From the NCBI GenBank assembly GCA_017619835.1, contig JAFZRN010000023.1, positions 53,510 to 117,509 of the forward strand: 64,000 nucleotides of DNA. The letters run 5' to 3'. The notes beneath the pieces were generated by a model that was not told where the DNA came from, ran no database searches, and saw only the letters and a program-made list of their open reading frames with translations. The DNA is from Eubacterium sp. GTDB lineage: Bacteria; Bacillota; Clostridia; Lachnospirales; Lachnospiraceae. Shown here piece by piece: positions 648 to 9,591 of the stretch (the first letter of the stretch is position 1; each line of letters opens with the position of its first letter). The translations under genes and the position numbers were made by a program.

Positions 648-1502
648 TTGGACAAAGGAAAAAGAACCAGATTCCTTGTAGTTGTAGGTATAGTTCTGGT
701 ACTGCTCCTGGTCGGGATTATCTGTACATATAAGGGAGGCGAACATCGCGAAACCATCAGAGAAGTTATGAAGGATGCTGTTCTTCATGAAGATAACAAA
801 ATCTACTTCTTAGGGATCGCTGTCAATCCCGCTCTTATATCGGCATATGTGGTAACAGCCATAATTCTTTTCATTGCTCTTTTGATCAGAATATTTGCCG
901 TACCGCGTTTCAAGACTGTGCCCGGTAAATTCCAGTCACTTCTTGAGCTGTGGGTAGGATATTTTGATAATCTGGCCAAGACGAACAGTCCGCACCTGAA
1001 CAGTATCCTCGGAGCATATGTATTCGCAGCCGGATCGTATATCTTCATAGGAACTGTATTCGAGCTTTTCGGAGTACAGGGAGTAACTACAGAAGGCTAT
1101 CCGATAGCACTTCCCGCACCGCTGGCTGATATCAACGGAGCGATAGGAATGGGTGTGTTCTCATACTTATTCATTATGTCGGGCGGTATCATAGCAAACA
1201 AGATAAAGGGTGTAGGGCTCACGCTTAAAGAGTTCTCGCTTCCGATATCGATGAGCTTCCGTCTTTTCGGAGCACTCCTGAGTGGTCTTTTAGTTACGGA
1301 ACTTGTATATTATGCCCTGATGCTGAGCTTTGTGCTTCCCGTTATAGTCGGTGTGTTGTTTACACTGATACATGCAGTTGTTCAGGCATACGTACTTACG
1401 ATGCTGACATCAATCTACTACGGAGAAGTATCAGAGGTTCATGAAAAGAAGCCTAAGAAAGAAAAGAAACAGAAAAAGTCCGAGCTGGCTGCCCAGGCTT
1501 AA
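648..1502 (+). CDS. atpB: F1Fo ATP synthase subunit a
   Basis: Membrane stator subunit that forms the ion half-channels next to the c ring. The start is TTG at 648, chosen because AAAGGAG lies about 10 bases upstream; no ATG fits. The essential stator arginine is Arg205 in SFRLFGALLSG, within the penultimate hydrophobic region, and PAPLADINGAIGMG matches the conserved loop before it. The usual RLFGN is RLFGA here, so the sequence is divergent from the E. coli type. The last 20 or so residues are a lysine-rich tail (KKPKKEKKQKK) not typical of the family. It is the first gene of the operon a-c-b-(delta)alpha-gamma-beta-epsilon. Confidence 0.93.
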   Translation: MDKGKRTRFLVVVGIVLVLLLVGIICTYKGGEHRETIREVMKDAVLHEDNKIYFLGIAVNPALISAYVVTAIILFIALLIRIFAVPRFKTVPGKFQSLLELWVGYFDNLAKTNSPHLNSILGAYVFAAGSYIFIGTVFELFGVQGVTTEGYPIALPAPLADINGAIGMGVFSYLFIMSGGIIANKIKGVGLTLKEFSLPISMSFRLFGALLSGLLVTELVYYALMLSFVLPVIVGVLFTLIHAVVQAYVLTMLTSIYYGEVSEVHEKKPKKEKKQKKSELAAQA

Positions 1503-1958: not shown

Positions 1959-2435
1959 ATGCCATTAGGAATAGATATAACACAGATATTACTTCATATG
2001 TTTAATGTGGTACTTCTCTTCGCAGGTCTTTATATAATCCTCTATTCTCCTGTAAAGAAATTCATGCAGCAGAGAGAGGACCATTATAAAGAAATGGATG
2101 AGTCGGCTAAAGCGAAGCTTGCGGAAGCTGAACAGAAGAATGCCGAATATGAAGAAAAGCTGAAGAATGTTGATGCAGAGATTTCCCAGCAGAGGAAGAA
2201 GGCATCCATAGATCTTGCGGAAATGAGATCTAACGCGGAAGCAGAAGCAAGAGATTCCGCAAGTAAGATCATCGAAGAGGCCAAGAAGGATGCTGAGAAT
2301 CAGAAGAGAGCTATCGTTCAGTCAGCTAAGAAAGAGATTACAGAGATGGTAGAGGAGGCAACCCGTAAGGTTGTTCTCACCGAAAGCACCAGTGAAGCAT
2401 ATGACATGTTTCTTGATAATGCTGAAAGGAGCTGA
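1959..2435 (+). CDS. atpF: ATP synthase subunit b (peripheral stalk)
   Basis: One N-terminal membrane helix (residues about 5-27), then a long charged coiled coil that is the stator stalk, 158 residues in all. ATG 1959 is preferred over an upstream TTG at 1944 because GAGAGGT sits just ahead of it at 1945-1951 with normal spacing. The C-terminus shows nothing resembling the missing delta N-terminal domain. Only 5 bases separate it from the next gene, the delta-alpha fusion. Confidence 0.92.
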
Positions 2436-2440
2436 AGATA

Positions 2441-4192
2441 GTGGCAGAAGAAAGAAAAACACGTGTCCTGCTCTATGCTCCGACAGAACCTGACGAAACC
2501 CAGAAAGCCAGACTGAATGCATTTGTCGCAAAAAAGCATGAGATTGAAACCGAGCTTCAGTGGATTGAGGACAAATCTCTTGAAAATGGCTTCCGTCTTG
2601 TAGTGGGTGAAGAGGTCTATGACTGGACCAGCGAGGGAAGACTTCATCAGCTCGAAGAAATGCTGAGGGAGATGAAGGTCGAGAAGGTTTCTTCGGGAGA
2701 AGAGCTTATCTCTCTTATGAAGACAAGTGTTCACGAGTGGGAGCCTCAGGTCATTTCAGAAGAAGAAGGCTATGTCGAATCAGTCGGTGACGGGATTGTC
2801 TTTGTTGATGGTCTCAAATCCGTTATGTATGGCGAGATAGTTGTATTTGAATCAGGCGTCAGGGGAATGGTTCAGGAACTGAGACCTGATGATATAGGTG
2901 TAATCCTTTTCGGTGATGATACCGAAGTTACCGAAGGAAGCAGAGTTCTGAGAACAGGAAAAACAGCAGGTATTCCTGTTGGTGAAGGGTTCCTCGGAAG
3001 AGTTGTTGATCCGCTTGGTAACCCGATAGACGGAGAAGGTCCGATAGAATCCGACGGCTACAGAGCTGTCGAGACAGCTGCTCCCGGAATCGTCGAGAGA
3101 CAGTCTGTAGATACACCGATGAACACGGGAATCCTTTCCATAGATTCCATGTTCCCTATAGGAAGAGGTCAGCGTGAGCTCATCATCGGCGACAGACAGA
3201 CCGGAAAGACAGCTATCGCACTTGATACAATACTTAACCAGAAAGGTAACGGAGTTATCTGTATATATGTTGCCATCGGTCAGAAGGCAAGTAGTGTGGC
3301 ACAGCTTGTCGGCACCCTTAAGAAAAAGGATGCCATGGATTATACGATAGTTGTTGCCGCAAATGCATCCGAGACGGCACCTATCCAGTACATCGCTCCA
3401 TATTCCGGAGCTGCACTTGCCGAATACTTCATGTGGAGAGGCAAGGATGTTCTTATCGTGTATGATGATCTGTCAAAGCATGCTATCGCTTACAGAGCTC
3501 TATCACTTCTTCTTGAAAGGTCTCCGGGCCGTGAGGCTTATCCCGGAGATGTATTCTATCTTCATTCAAGACTGCTCGAGAGATCGGCACGTCTTAGTGA
3601 GGAAGCAGGTGGAGGAAGCATTACAGCACTTCCGATAGTAGAAACCCAGGCAGGTGATGTATCGGCATATATCCCTACCAATATCATTTCCATTACAGAC
3701 GGACAGATATTCCTTGAGAGTGATCTCTTCTTCGCTGGACAGAGACCGGCCGTAAATGTCGGACTTTCCGTATCCCGTGTTGGTGGAGCAGCTCAGACCA
3801 AGGCTATGAAGAAGGCTGCAGGAAGCCTTCGTCTCGACCTTGCACAGTATCGTGAAATGGAAATCTTTACGCAGTTCTCCAGTGATCTGGATGATGCGAC
3901 CAAGAGGCAGCTGGCATATGGTCAGGGACTTATGTACCTCTTACGTCAGCCGCAGAATAATCCTTTTAAACCTCATGAGCAGGTTATCATGCTGGTGGTT
4001 GCTACTGCACATATCATGCAGGATCTGCCGGTAGATAAAATTGCCGATTTCAGAACAAAGCTTCTGGAATACTTCCATGAGGAAGAGGATGCACTTTGTA
4101 AACAGATAGATTCAACAGGTCAGCTTTCCGATGAAGATAAACAGACTATAATCGATGCAGCTAATACATTTATGGAAAGCTATAAAAATTAA
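2441..4192 (+). CDS. atpA: ATP synthase delta(C-terminal domain)-alpha fusion
   Basis: At 583 residues it is about 80 longer than a normal alpha. Residues 1 to about 78 are not alpha: [17 protein letters not shown] then [11 protein letters not shown] match the end of delta/OSCP (the E. coli pattern is KIDKSVMAGVIIRAGD then GRLERLADVL). From about residue 82 the protein is a normal catalytic-core alpha subunit. The P-loop GDRQTGKT is at 250-257, Walker B is in DVLIVYDD, and the arginine finger is Arg446 in SVSRVGG. There is no separate atpH in the operon, and the delta N-terminal helical domain is absent. The start is GTG 2441 behind AAAGGAG. The fused domain would place a stalk-binding module on each alpha. 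Confidence 0.93.
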
Positions 4193-4195
4193 AAA

Positions 4196-6489
<2,294 letters not shown>

Positions 6490-6492
6490 AGT

Positions 6493-6903
6493 ATGAAACC
6501 ATTTGATTGCAGGATAATAGAAGCGGATAATACATTTTACGCCGGTAAAATGCTTTCTCTCATAGTCCCGGCTGTAGACGGCGAGTATGGTGTTCTTGCG
6601 ATGCACCAGAACGTGGTAGTTGCCATTATCCCGGGGACGCTTAAGTTTCAGGATGAGGAAGGCGAATGGCATGATGCTATTGTTTCGGACGGCATGATGA
6701 GGATTGAAGACGGAGATGTGCTCATCCTTGTGGATTCTGCCGAGTGGCCTTACGAGATAGATGCTTCAAGGATCAAAGCCAAGGAGGCTGCCGCCAGAGA
6801 GGCGATGCTCCAGAAGAAGAGCGTCCGTGAATATACTCTTGCCGAGTCGAGCTTAAAGAGAGCTATCGCGAGAATGAAATATTTTGATTCGATAAATAAT
6901 TAG
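6493..6903 (+). CDS. atpC: ATP synthase epsilon subunit
   Basis: Rotor foot and regulatory subunit, 136 residues. The N-terminal beta sandwich contains GEYGVLAMHQNVV, close to the usual GxxGxLxxHxP motif. The C-terminal part, rich in Ala, Lys and Arg, forms the two-helix domain that can inhibit ATP hydrolysis. It is the last structural gene of the atp operon, with DUF2752 6 bases further on. Confidence 0.93.
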   Translation: MKPFDCRIIEADNTFYAGKMLSLIVPAVDGEYGVLAMHQNVVVAIIPGTLKFQDEEGEWHDAIVSDGMMRIEDGDVLILVDSAEWPYEIDASRIKAKEAAAREAMLQKKSVREYTLAESSLKRAIARMKYFDSINN

Positions 6904-6909
6904 GATTTT

Positions 6910-7332
6910 ATGTATCAGAAAATGAGCCGCGAGGAGCGGGAAGCAAAATATCATATCAGCCTCTCTAAAGAGGATATCAGAAAAAGAACCATAAGAGATG
7001 TGGTTCTTCTTCTGGTTTTCGGGATAATATATTACTTTATGGTAAAGTATTCGCCGATAACTCCGAGATGCTACTTTAATGAACTGACCGGTCTTAAGTG
7101 TCCGGCTTGCGGAGTCACCAGGATGATCCTGTCCCTGATGCATTTTGATCTAAGAAGTGCATTTAATTATAATCAGTATCTTTTTATAACCAGCCCCTAT
7201 ATGGTTGGTGAAATTATATATCTTTTCTATATCAATGAATCGAAGATTCCGATGAACAGGGTGAATAAGATCATCCTCTATGTCTGGTTGGTGGGTCTGA
7301 TCGTCTTCGGAGTGATCCGGAACCTGATCTGA
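6910..7332 (+). CDS. DUF2752 membrane protein
   Basis: Small membrane protein of 140 residues. The family signature is KCPACGVTRM (CPxCGxTR) after the first membrane segment, followed by SLMHFDLRSAFNYN and further hydrophobic segments. The function of the family is unknown; the Cys pair could bind metal or form a disulfide. It lies 6 bases behind atpC, so it is probably transcribed with the ATP synthase, and a terminator follows at 7401. Confidence 0.85.
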   Translation: MYQKMSREEREAKYHISLSKEDIRKRTIRDVVLLLVFGIIYYFMVKYSPITPRCYFNELTGLKCPACGVTRMILSLMHFDLRSAFNYNQYLFITSPYMVGEIIYLFYINESKIPMNRVNKIILYVWLVGLIVFGVIRNLI

Positions 7333-7464: not shown

Positions 7465-7497
7465 TTTTTCAAAATTTTTTTTGGGAGGATGATTTTT

Positions 7498-9591
7498 ATG
7501 AGTAAATTGAGGAAGAGATTAGTTTCAATCGTTATCGCCTGCATGATGGTGATAACCCTGGTACCGTTTTCCGGAAGTAAGGTAAATGCAGCGGAAGAAT
7601 ATACGATTGATAAGATATCCATTAATCTTAAGCCGGGAACACTTATCAAGCCGGGATATGATGTTCAAATTCCGGGAGCATTGATAAAAGATACGGATTA
7701 TGAGATAGATGAAGCAAATACCGATGCTGCTTCTAATAAAGGCCTTAAATCCGGAGATATTATAATTGATTCTATCATCTGGGAGATGAAGGAAAATAAT
7801 GGTACATGGGAATCTTATTCAGGTACATTTGAAGTAGGTACTTATAGGATGCATGTGAAAGTAAAAACCAATGCGTATGATGCATATGTGAATCATGTAC
7901 AATATGAAAATGTATACACTTTTGATATGACGAGTGAAGGAGAATCCAGTTTTTACGTGAATGGAAGCAGGTTAGAGACTGATTCTGCTAATATTTCAGA
8001 AAGTGATTTCTATGGTCCGGAGTTTTCCATAACTGAGAGCAGTAAGGCTGAATATGTTCCGGAAAATACTACTGATCCAACTCCAACTCCTACACCTAAT
8101 ACACAGCAGCCTACAGCACAGCCCACAGCTCAGCCTGAAGTTTTATCTACAAAGATTACAGGTGCTCCTACGAATCTGGTTTGCTCACTAACAAATGCTG
8201 ATACAAAAAAGATAAATGTGGAATTCGAGCCTAATCTGGATTGCGGAATAGACACCAGCTGCTATTTAGTTGTTGCTGCTTCGACTGATAATAAGGCTAC
8301 CTGGAAGGAAGTGATCAAGCAGGATCTAACCGGAATTAAAACTTTGAGTCAGAATACTAATGCATTACGTGGAAGTTATAGTTTCAAAATAGAATTGGAG
8401 ACGACATACTATGTAAAGGTATACTATGTTGATTCTGACGGAAAGAAGGGACCGGATTCAAATATCTGTGGACCGTTTGGCCCTGTAGAAGATGAGTCTA
8501 AGATACCGGGTAAAGTAGAAGAGGCATCTAAGGTCGCTCTTAAGGAAACCGGAAATGACGCAGGTGTATTAAAGAAGGGTACAAGCGTTACATTTGAGAG
8601 AGCATTTTATAAGCTTACATTATCCGTAAAGGATATTAAGGGTACAGATGTTACTTTCGCTGTCAACCTGGCACCAAATAAGCCATATGACGCTTATCTA
8701 TTTATGTCACACGGCAGTATCAGTTATAAGGATAAAAAGGGTGATCCTCGTATCGAGTTTTTTATGAACGAAGAAGCAACTATAGATATGTCTAATATAG
8801 AAGTTGGATGTACTAAGATAACAATCCCTGTTACTGCTGAACTTCTTCAGAAATACGATAGAAACCAGAAGAAATATAAGTTCGAGGAAACATTCTACTT
8901 TGATAATGCTCCTCAGACACCTTCACTCGGTGTAACCAAGGCTGATAAGAAGAGCATTACACTTGGTAAGGCATATTCGGCAACAGCTAACTGTACTGAT
9001 TCGGGAACTACCGTTTACTACAAAAAGAAGGGCGCATCTAAATGGAAAGAAAAGTCATTTGCCAAGGGTAAGACTATAAAGCTTACCGGTCTTTCTGCAG
9101 GTACTTCATATCAGATTAAGGCAGTTAACTTCGTAAAGAGTAAAGACAGGAACGGAAAAGTAAAGACTATCAGCAGTAATGAAAGCAACGTAAACATTTT
9201 CAGAACTGCATATAAGTCAAGCCCTAAAGTAAAATCAGTTAAGACATCTAAGGTTAAGCAGAAGACCAAGAAGTTTAATGGTCAGTGGGTTAAGAGCGGA
9301 AATAAATTAAAGTGGCAGAAACCGTATACATTAAATGTTACTACATATAAGCTTACTATAAAGATGAAGTCAAAGCCAACAAATGCAGGCGGAATAGTTG
9401 TTAAGGATCCGGATGGAGTTGTACATATCATCAAGGGAGCAAAGAAAAAATATACGCTTTCAAGCGAGATAAAGGGATTCAAAAAAGGACAGACTGTTAA
9501 GTTTAAGGTTGCGACATTCGGAAACGGCGATAAGGTTGATAATATTACCGGTGTAAGCCCTTATAAGACAATTAATGTTACACTGAGATAG
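7498..9591 (+). CDS. Secreted modular protein with Fn3-like domains (paralogue of the next gene)
   Basis: Unknown function, 697 residues. The signal peptide SIVIACMMVITLVPFSGS ends near KVNA-AEE. An N-terminal beta domain (about 35-185) is followed by a Thr/Pro/Gln linker (about 189-215), an Fn3-like domain (about 218-345) ending GPDSNICGPFGPVE, a middle domain, an Fn3-like domain with SAGTSYQIKAVNF, and a lysine-rich C-terminal beta domain. There is no LPXTG sorting motif, so attachment is probably non-covalent through the basic C-terminus. ATG 7498 is preferred to 7489: GGGAGG abuts 7489 but sits 9 bases before 7498, and the paralogue at 9715 has the same layout. The C-terminal two domains recur in the protein at 39979. 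Confidence 0.85.
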   Translation: MSKLRKRLVSIVIACMMVITLVPFSGSKVNAAEEYTIDKISINLKPGTLIKPGYDVQIPGALIKDTDYEIDEANTDAASNKGLKSGDIIIDSIIWEMKENNGTWESYSGTFEVGTYRMHVKVKTNAYDAYVNHVQYENVYTFDMTSEGESSFYVNGSRLETDSANISESDFYGPEFSITESSKAEYVPENTTDPTPTPTPNTQQPTAQPTAQPEVLSTKITGAPTNLVCSLTNADTKKINVEFEPNLDCGIDTSCYLVVAASTDNKATWKEVIKQDLTGIKTLSQNTNALRGSYSFKIELETTYYVKVYYVDSDGKKGPDSNICGPFGPVEDESKIPGKVEEASKVALKETGNDAGVLKKGTSVTFERAFYKLTLSVKDIKGTDVTFAVNLAPNKPYDAYLFMSHGSISYKDKKGDPRIEFFMNEEATIDMSNIEVGCTKITIPVTAELLQKYDRNQKKYKFEETFYFDNAPQTPSLGVTKADKKSITLGKAYSATANCTDSGTTVYYKKKGASKWKEKSFAKGKTIKLTGLSAGTSYQIKAVNFVKSKDRNGKVKTISSNESNVNIFRTAYKSSPKVKSVKTSKVKQKTKKFNGQWVKSGNKLKWQKPYTLNVTTYKLTIKMKSKPTNAGGIVVKDPDGVVHIIKGAKKKYTLSSEIKGFKKGQTVKFKVATFGNGDKVDNITGVSPYKTINVTLR

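Follow-up and report, generated by a model that had tools for sequence, protein, structure and literature searches.

In the accepted picture, an F-type ATP synthase has a single peripheral stalk and a single a-subunit, and the size of the c-ring alone then sets the ratio of ions to ATP. The window analysed here, a stretch of 64,000 nucleotides from a gut (rumen-type) bacterium, begins with the genes of an atp operon, arranged a, c, b, fused gene, gamma, beta, epsilon, and in the fused gene a part of the delta-subunit stands in front of alpha. This raises the question of how many stalks and a-subunits such an enzyme holds. If an enzyme in nature did hold two or three a-subunits, it would break the rule that only the c-ring counts, and estimates of ATP yield would then change for many gut anaerobes. 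In addition, the window shares its design with an enzyme that was recently engineered to run at a low voltage across the membrane (Ueno et al. 2025, PMC12229609). This engineered twin gives a benchmark for stoichiometry and balance pmf, and the natural version is available in sequenced isolates, which makes the question directly testable.

The fused gene and its operon

The gene following atpF (Table 1) encodes an alpha-subunit with the delta (OSCP) C-terminal domain (CTD) in front, and the delta N-terminal domain (NTD) is missing. The sequence-only reading had described a delta C-terminus fused to the N-terminus of alpha and had put forward a comparison of the N-terminal residues with the OSCP profile; both the Pfam profile and a family-level hhalign comparison agree with that description. 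Pfam OSCP matched residues 1-100 with 27.0 bits (cut-off 22.3) at residues 5-75 and profile positions 101-172 of 172, and the whole fused protein with 23.3 bits at residues 6-75. The N-terminal parts of 106 fused genes aligned with the canonical delta-CTD with a probability of 97.4% (E 1.3e-11, 74 columns), and the control alignment with the delta-NTD gave 0.8%. The NCBIfam delta models matched the fused protein weakly, with their C-terminal ends only and below their whole-protein cut-offs. Since the single sequence of the window reached 23.8% (E 8e-4) against the canonical delta-CTD, the certainty of the assignment comes from the family profile.

The alpha part is complete, including its N-terminal helix, because the TIGR00962 (atpA) match (749.1 bits, cut-off 484.45) covers residues 87-581 and starts at model position 5. 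This helix is kept although its usual partner, the delta-NTD, is missing. The stop codon of atpF (2433-2435) is followed by five bases and then by the GTG at 2441, with AAAGGAG nine bases 5' of the GTG. In atpF itself, an in-frame TTG is present at 1944 besides the ATG at 1959. A lost stop codon or dropped bases could also produce such a frame as an artefact of sequencing or assembly, but this explanation is refuted, and its probability is negligible, since the same architecture recurs in 59 of 61 congeners and in three isolates, one of which is a single 3.19-Mb contig. The fused gene also looks functional.

Table 1. Features of the atp operon in the window (positions of the whole stretch)
Feature	Positions	Strand	Evidence
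atpB, subunit a	648..1502	+	Pfam ATP-synt_A, 57.7 bits
atpE, subunit c, with N-terminal extension of ~50 aa	1545..1904	+	Pfam ATP-synt_C, residues 52-115
atpF, subunit b, 158 aa from ATG 1959	1959..2435	+	Pfam ATP-synt_B, 48.6 bits
Shine-Dalgarno AAAGGAG of the fused gene, within the end of atpF	2425..2431	+	duplex with 16S tail, -13.6 kcal/mol
Fused delta-CTD/alpha gene (atpHA), 583 aa, GTG start	2441..4192	+	ORF, Pfam, NCBIfam
Delta (OSCP) C-terminal domain, residues 5-75	2453..2665	+	Pfam OSCP 101-172/172, hhalign
Linker, residues 76-88	2666..2704	+	phmmer alignment; ends by eye
Alpha N-terminal helix region, residues 89-104	2705..2752	+	alignments including 9jc1; ends by eye
Alpha beta-barrel, nucleotide-binding and C-terminal domains	2753..4189	+	PF02874, PF00006, PF00306
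atpG, gamma	4196..5104	+	PF00231
atpD, beta	5101..6489	+	TIGR01039, 809.5 bits
atpC, epsilon, including C-terminal helical domain	6493..6903	+	PF02823, PF00401

No delta-NTD was found by Pfam and hhalign in the fused gene, the operon or the rest of the genome, which bears out the earlier statement that this domain is missing. The fused C-terminal part is the only OSCP (PF00213) match in the genome at E ≤ 10 (assembly 93% complete, 44 contigs), and within these bounds there is no trace of a separate full-length atpH, which the sequence-only reading had named as evidence that would speak against it. A delta-NTD hidden in b was rejected, as the b of the window gave hhalign 0.1 and 0.2% against two delta-NTD profiles and 0.1-0.8% against delta-NTD or whole-delta profiles. 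In some congeners PF00213 seemingly runs from b into alpha across one TAA (profile 28-71 to 170-172); in the inspected loci L086-L092, b and alpha are simply two frames three bases apart. A free delta-NTD encoded elsewhere would give alpha3 back its usual cap. Sister full fusions, described below, have divergent NTDs (hhalign 89.6% against the canonical NTD), so that a free NTD could escape PF00213, and the assembly is 93% complete; even so, we regard this explanation as very improbable, given the lack of any further match in the window's own genome and given the one-contig relative G302, where the fused gene is the sole OSCP match under E 0.1 and the one other match has E 0.117.

Distribution and history of the fusion

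In the genus, a delta-CTD match of the fused type was observed in 59 of the 61 genomes at E ≤ 1, with 7 of the 59 scoring under the Pfam cut-off. The operons of 36 of the 59 were inspected, and in every one of the 36 the delta-CTD and alpha share a reading frame; in G306 the fused frame is present and alpha is broken further on. The remaining two congeners are G321 (71% complete), without a match, and G322, with a full delta only. A full-length delta is present in 23 of the 61 congeners, beside the fused gene in 22 and alone in one.

The fusion extends well beyond the genus. In the family sample, 125 of 397 genomes matched the N-terminal query and at least 72 have a stop-free fused frame (≥570 residues over the match), 40 of which were read as loci; the other matches are deltas standing alone (160-200 residues), frames with interruptions, or contig ends. 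This answers the survey of Lachnospiraceae atp operons that had been suggested from the sequence. Among the matches listed for the order sample (295 genomes), at least 33 are fused, in three family codes, and the phylum sample (398 genomes, E ≤ 1e-12) yielded seven fused genes, three of them in further family codes (G989, G997 and G805) with a Pfam delta-CTD and no NTD (profile 102-171, 101-171 and 104-172, respectively). The relatives that bear a name, also 33 in number, are filed as 'Eubacterium sp.', as Lachnospiraceae (uncultured or cultured) or as unplaced Bacillota or Clostridiales, and several of them are titled after ruminant gut sites.

Three architectures were observed. Among 139 fused frames (with repeats), an NTD was detected by HMM in 17 and none in 122. 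L071 and L072 (OSCP profile 19-171 and 23-172), from other Lachnospiraceae, hold the full delta-NTD, delta-CTD and alpha in one frame; L128, L132 and others are also full fusions of this kind. Since these keep the delta-NTD, fusion is not always accompanied by loss of the asymmetric cap, and since the threefold axis should not have space for three delta-NTDs at once, the stoichiometry of the full fusions is also a puzzle. In L215 and others, a 173-residue delta of the same subtype lies just before a separate alpha.

A quick, unrooted tree of 104 alpha cores, from which gain and loss cannot be read off, contains 57 delta-CTD-alpha rows, 13 full fusions and 34 plain alphas as classified by HMM, with no NTD detected in L068, L226 and L234. 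The three states share one clade of 78 rows (SH-aLRT 98), within which the window lies in a clade of 43 rows (100) that is delta-CTD-only, with a delta-NTD in 0 of 43. The delta-NTD is missing also in fused lineages apart from this clade, and the delta-CTD state needs 7 changes on the tree, at least 5 of them forced by the starred branches. Unfused alphas are nested inside the fused clade, indicating that the trait comes and goes. A single origin for all fused alphas was rejected (best such tree 85 log units worse, p-AU 0.027, for a group named after the tree was seen), and an origin of the far L225/L226 fusions apart from the Lachnospirales clade found no support (p-AU 0.496).

One relative goes further. 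On contig G068:C33 (L234, 1129-3489; L243, 2629-4989), one open frame of 787 residues encodes b with its membrane helix (ATP-synt_B match), delta-CTD (OSCP profile positions 54-171) and alpha; the operon runs a, c, [b-delta-alpha], gamma, beta, epsilon. Of the starts in the first 240 codons of this frame, codon 10 alone has a ribosome site at or below -6 kcal/mol. This triple fusion comes from one genome and one contig; if real, it would tie an own b to every alpha, which is hard to fit with one stalk.

Sockets, stalks and the engineered counterpart

For the number of sockets, the in-frame start codons of 108 unique fused genes were scored by pairing with the 16S tail, with ≤ -7 kcal/mol taken as a strong ribosome site and 14-50 codons before the barrel as the internal region. 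The upstream start has a strong site in 94 of the 108 genes. A strong internal site was found in 3 of 108, compared with a background of 11.6% for same-size windows inside alpha, and in 25 of 108 the internal region lacks ATG, GTG and TTG altogether; the upstream search window is wider than the internal one and favours the upstream start somewhat, and the internal value is still under background. In the window, in-frame ATGs are present at 2660 (M74), 2672 (M78) and 2717 (M93). GAGGGAG lies directly against M78, too close for a usual ribosome site, and for M93 the GGGAG at 2695-2699 is as the sequence-only reading had described it in finding no good internal site. Among 114 unique fused genes, Met occupies the aligned positions in 27 (M74), 10 (M78) and 22 (M93). 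Internal initiation at these three positions as a general mechanism was rejected on both ribosome sites and Met conservation.

Internal initiation, or proteolysis of the linker, could supply a pool of free alpha and so allow one fused and two plain alphas with a single stalk. The three ATGs and the possible exposure of a variable linker speak for such a pool, but it appears rather improbable in view of the start-site and Met counts and of the linker, in which no conserved motif was seen in the alignment of fused genes. The internal start that had been offered as a source of free alpha is accordingly disfavoured, and cleavage, offered beside it, found no sequence support, the linker varying in both length and sequence. 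With strong sites upstream and few internal ones, every alpha probably carries a stalk socket, that is, three delta-CTDs per F1, in line with the three stalk-binding domains that had been proposed at the outset.

Among PDB chains, 9jc1 matches residues 1-125 best (E 8e-7). In the phmmer alignment (residues 17-125 of the fused protein, 15-122 of 9jc1), domain, linker and helix are co-linear, and the one gap is a single residue in the linker, which is longer by that residue in the fused protein. When the query is cut to residues 1-100, the natural PS3 delta (6n2y_I, E 0.0033) comes first, ahead of 9jc1 (E 0.067); 9jc1 is favoured as the match because it alone holds both the delta-CTD and the alpha parts. 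According to Ueno et al. 2025 (PMC12229609), 9jc1 is an engineered Bacillus PS3 FoF1, the delta-deltaN-alpha fused enzyme, in which the delta-NTD was removed and the delta-CTD fused to alpha; as many as three stalks were obtained, and each carries an a-subunit. By cryo-EM it is a mix of one, two and three stalks with an average of about two, its H+/ATP ratio is 5.8 versus 3.0 and its balance pmf 68 versus 133 mV, and the authors conclude that the delta-NTD limits the number of stalks to one (PMC12229609). As in 9jc1, the delta-CTD of the window is joined to the alpha N-terminus, the delta-NTD is gone and the alpha helix is kept; unlike the window, whose operon keeps the epsilon helical domain, 9jc1 is artificial and has the epsilon C-terminal domain deleted. 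The same source reports the natural fusion in Acidaminococcus fermentans and in UniProt G4Q3K6 and A0A1I2C5T3, with the multi-stalk state awaiting verification; by its description these are also delta-CTD-alpha proteins without the delta-NTD, belonging to organisms other than that of the window.

The locus encodes an F-type ATP synthase with a delta-CTD socket built into alpha, and we consider it reasonably likely that this enzyme can hold as many as three b2/a units. All three alphas would carry a socket; with no delta-NTD on the threefold axis the symmetry would stay unbroken, so that up to three b2 dimers could dock, each holding one a-subunit around one c-ring. The ion/ATP ratio would rise with the number of a-subunits and the enzyme would balance at a lower membrane potential, making ATP at low pmf or pumping more ions per ATP against a small gradient. 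There is probably room for two or three side-stalks in the window's enzyme, and a multi-stalk state is likely, although we infer the step from sockets to stalks. Among the options that had been named for the odd stoichiometry, a stator built differently is the best supported, by 9jc1 and its paper.

Several findings weigh against the multi-stalk reading, namely the fusions that keep the delta-NTD (17 of the 139 frames, 13 of the 104 tree rows), the unfused alphas inside the fused clade, and the average of about two stalks even in the engineered enzyme (PMC12229609). Three sockets could also be present with only one b2/a assembled, the supply of a and b or packing around the c-ring being limiting, which would leave two sockets unoccupied and the ion/ATP ratio at its usual value. 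One a gene and one b gene in an ordinary operon order, with a single PF00119 match for subunit a in the genome (E ≤ 0.01), fit this, as do the one-stalk particles in the engineered mixture. That mixture nevertheless averages about two, and the delta-NTD, held to enforce a single stalk, is in none of the 43 rows of the window's clade; we therefore see a single b2/a as unlikely, though a serious alternative to the multi-stalk enzyme.

Other known systems share some traits with the multi-stalk candidate. The full fusions L071 and L072 lie in the same alpha clade (SH-aLRT 98) and have delta and alpha in one frame; unlike the window, they and the other full fusions keep the delta-NTD. In N-ATPases a delta-CTD-like domain is likewise carried by a neighbour, and the domain of the window matches TIGR03321 at 173-243; it ends subunit b there and starts alpha here, and the gene order, as given in PMC5709465, differs. 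Membership in the N-ATPases was rejected, since alpha scored 601.6 against TIGR03324 (cut-off 750.5) and b 42.1 against TIGR03321 (cut-off 224.7; positions 4-137 of 246 only). The mycobacterial b-delta fusion (PDB 7jg5_d; PMC5709465) also fuses a stalk subunit to delta, with delta joined to b rather than to alpha. That gene-order study of F1Fo describes delta/b fusions and the N-ATPase, and a survey of rumen Butyrivibrio (PMC4478896) counts F0F1 subunits, with the word 'fusion' occurring 0 times. In the open-licence PMC literature, one earlier report of natural delta/alpha fusions was found, that of Ueno et al. 2025, so that, as far as found, the window is a natural counterpart in Lachnospirales of a kind first noted in 2025. 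The breadth of the fusion, the full delta-alpha fusions, the repeated changes of architecture and the one b-delta-CTD-alpha fusion are added here and were not found described.

Ion type and physiology

The canonical F-type c of the congeners reads GIGQG...ETTGLY, which we take to be Na+-type, and the fused-type c of the window's clade lacks that Q in the operons listed, which we take, from the Na+-site positions, to be H+-type. By these motif positions in its c-subunit, the enzyme of the window is probably H+-type. The extension of about 50 residues on subunit c is signal-peptide-like by eye and then acidic; it is common to the listed operons of the main delta-CTD-alpha clade and absent in the unfused, full-fusion and other delta-CTD-alpha lineages listed.

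No rnfC was found over cut-off in the window's genome, and PF00346, the family that includes the Ech large subunit, had no match there and was present in 2 of 61 genomes of the genus. With neither rnfC nor an Ech-like 49-kDa subunit, low-gear H+ pumping is at least as likely as synthesis, and the enzyme may mainly pump in this organism; at low pmf, pumping and synthesis alike would be well served by a high ion/ATP ratio. Across the genus, a full delta and rnfC occur together in 19 of 61 genomes, with 4 having delta only, 4 rnfC only and 34 neither (Fisher p 1.8e-8, uncorrected for relatedness or genome incompleteness). Nearly all of the genus has the fused enzyme, and the canonical enzyme, Na+-type by its c motif, tracks rnfC; perhaps two F-type enzymes serve two ions in the congeners.

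The wider proposal built on these results, to which we give even weight for and against, is that an F-type enzyme with several stalks arose naturally in Lachnospirales and was repeatedly rebuilt there, with as many as three b2/a units around one rotor and an ion/ATP ratio two to three times the normal one. It would be the sole F-type enzyme in the window's genome, would stand beside a separate Rnf-associated enzyme in congeners, and would have stalk, socket and alpha in one chain in one relative.

The window's genome contains one F-type beta. A V/A-type ATPase, with A and B genes at G000:C30:24607-27137 (NF003220, 928.7 bits; NF003235, 778.9 bits), is a second kind of rotary ATPase on another contig. 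Around the atp operon, window positions 7489-9591 encode a secreted-looking protein of 700 residues with a threonine/proline-rich stretch and no Pfam match at E ≤ 0.01, a Rhomboid-family protein (38-529; PF01694, 59.5 bits) lies just 5' of the operon, and a DUF2752 protein (6910-7332; PF10825, 62.4 bits) follows directly after atpC.
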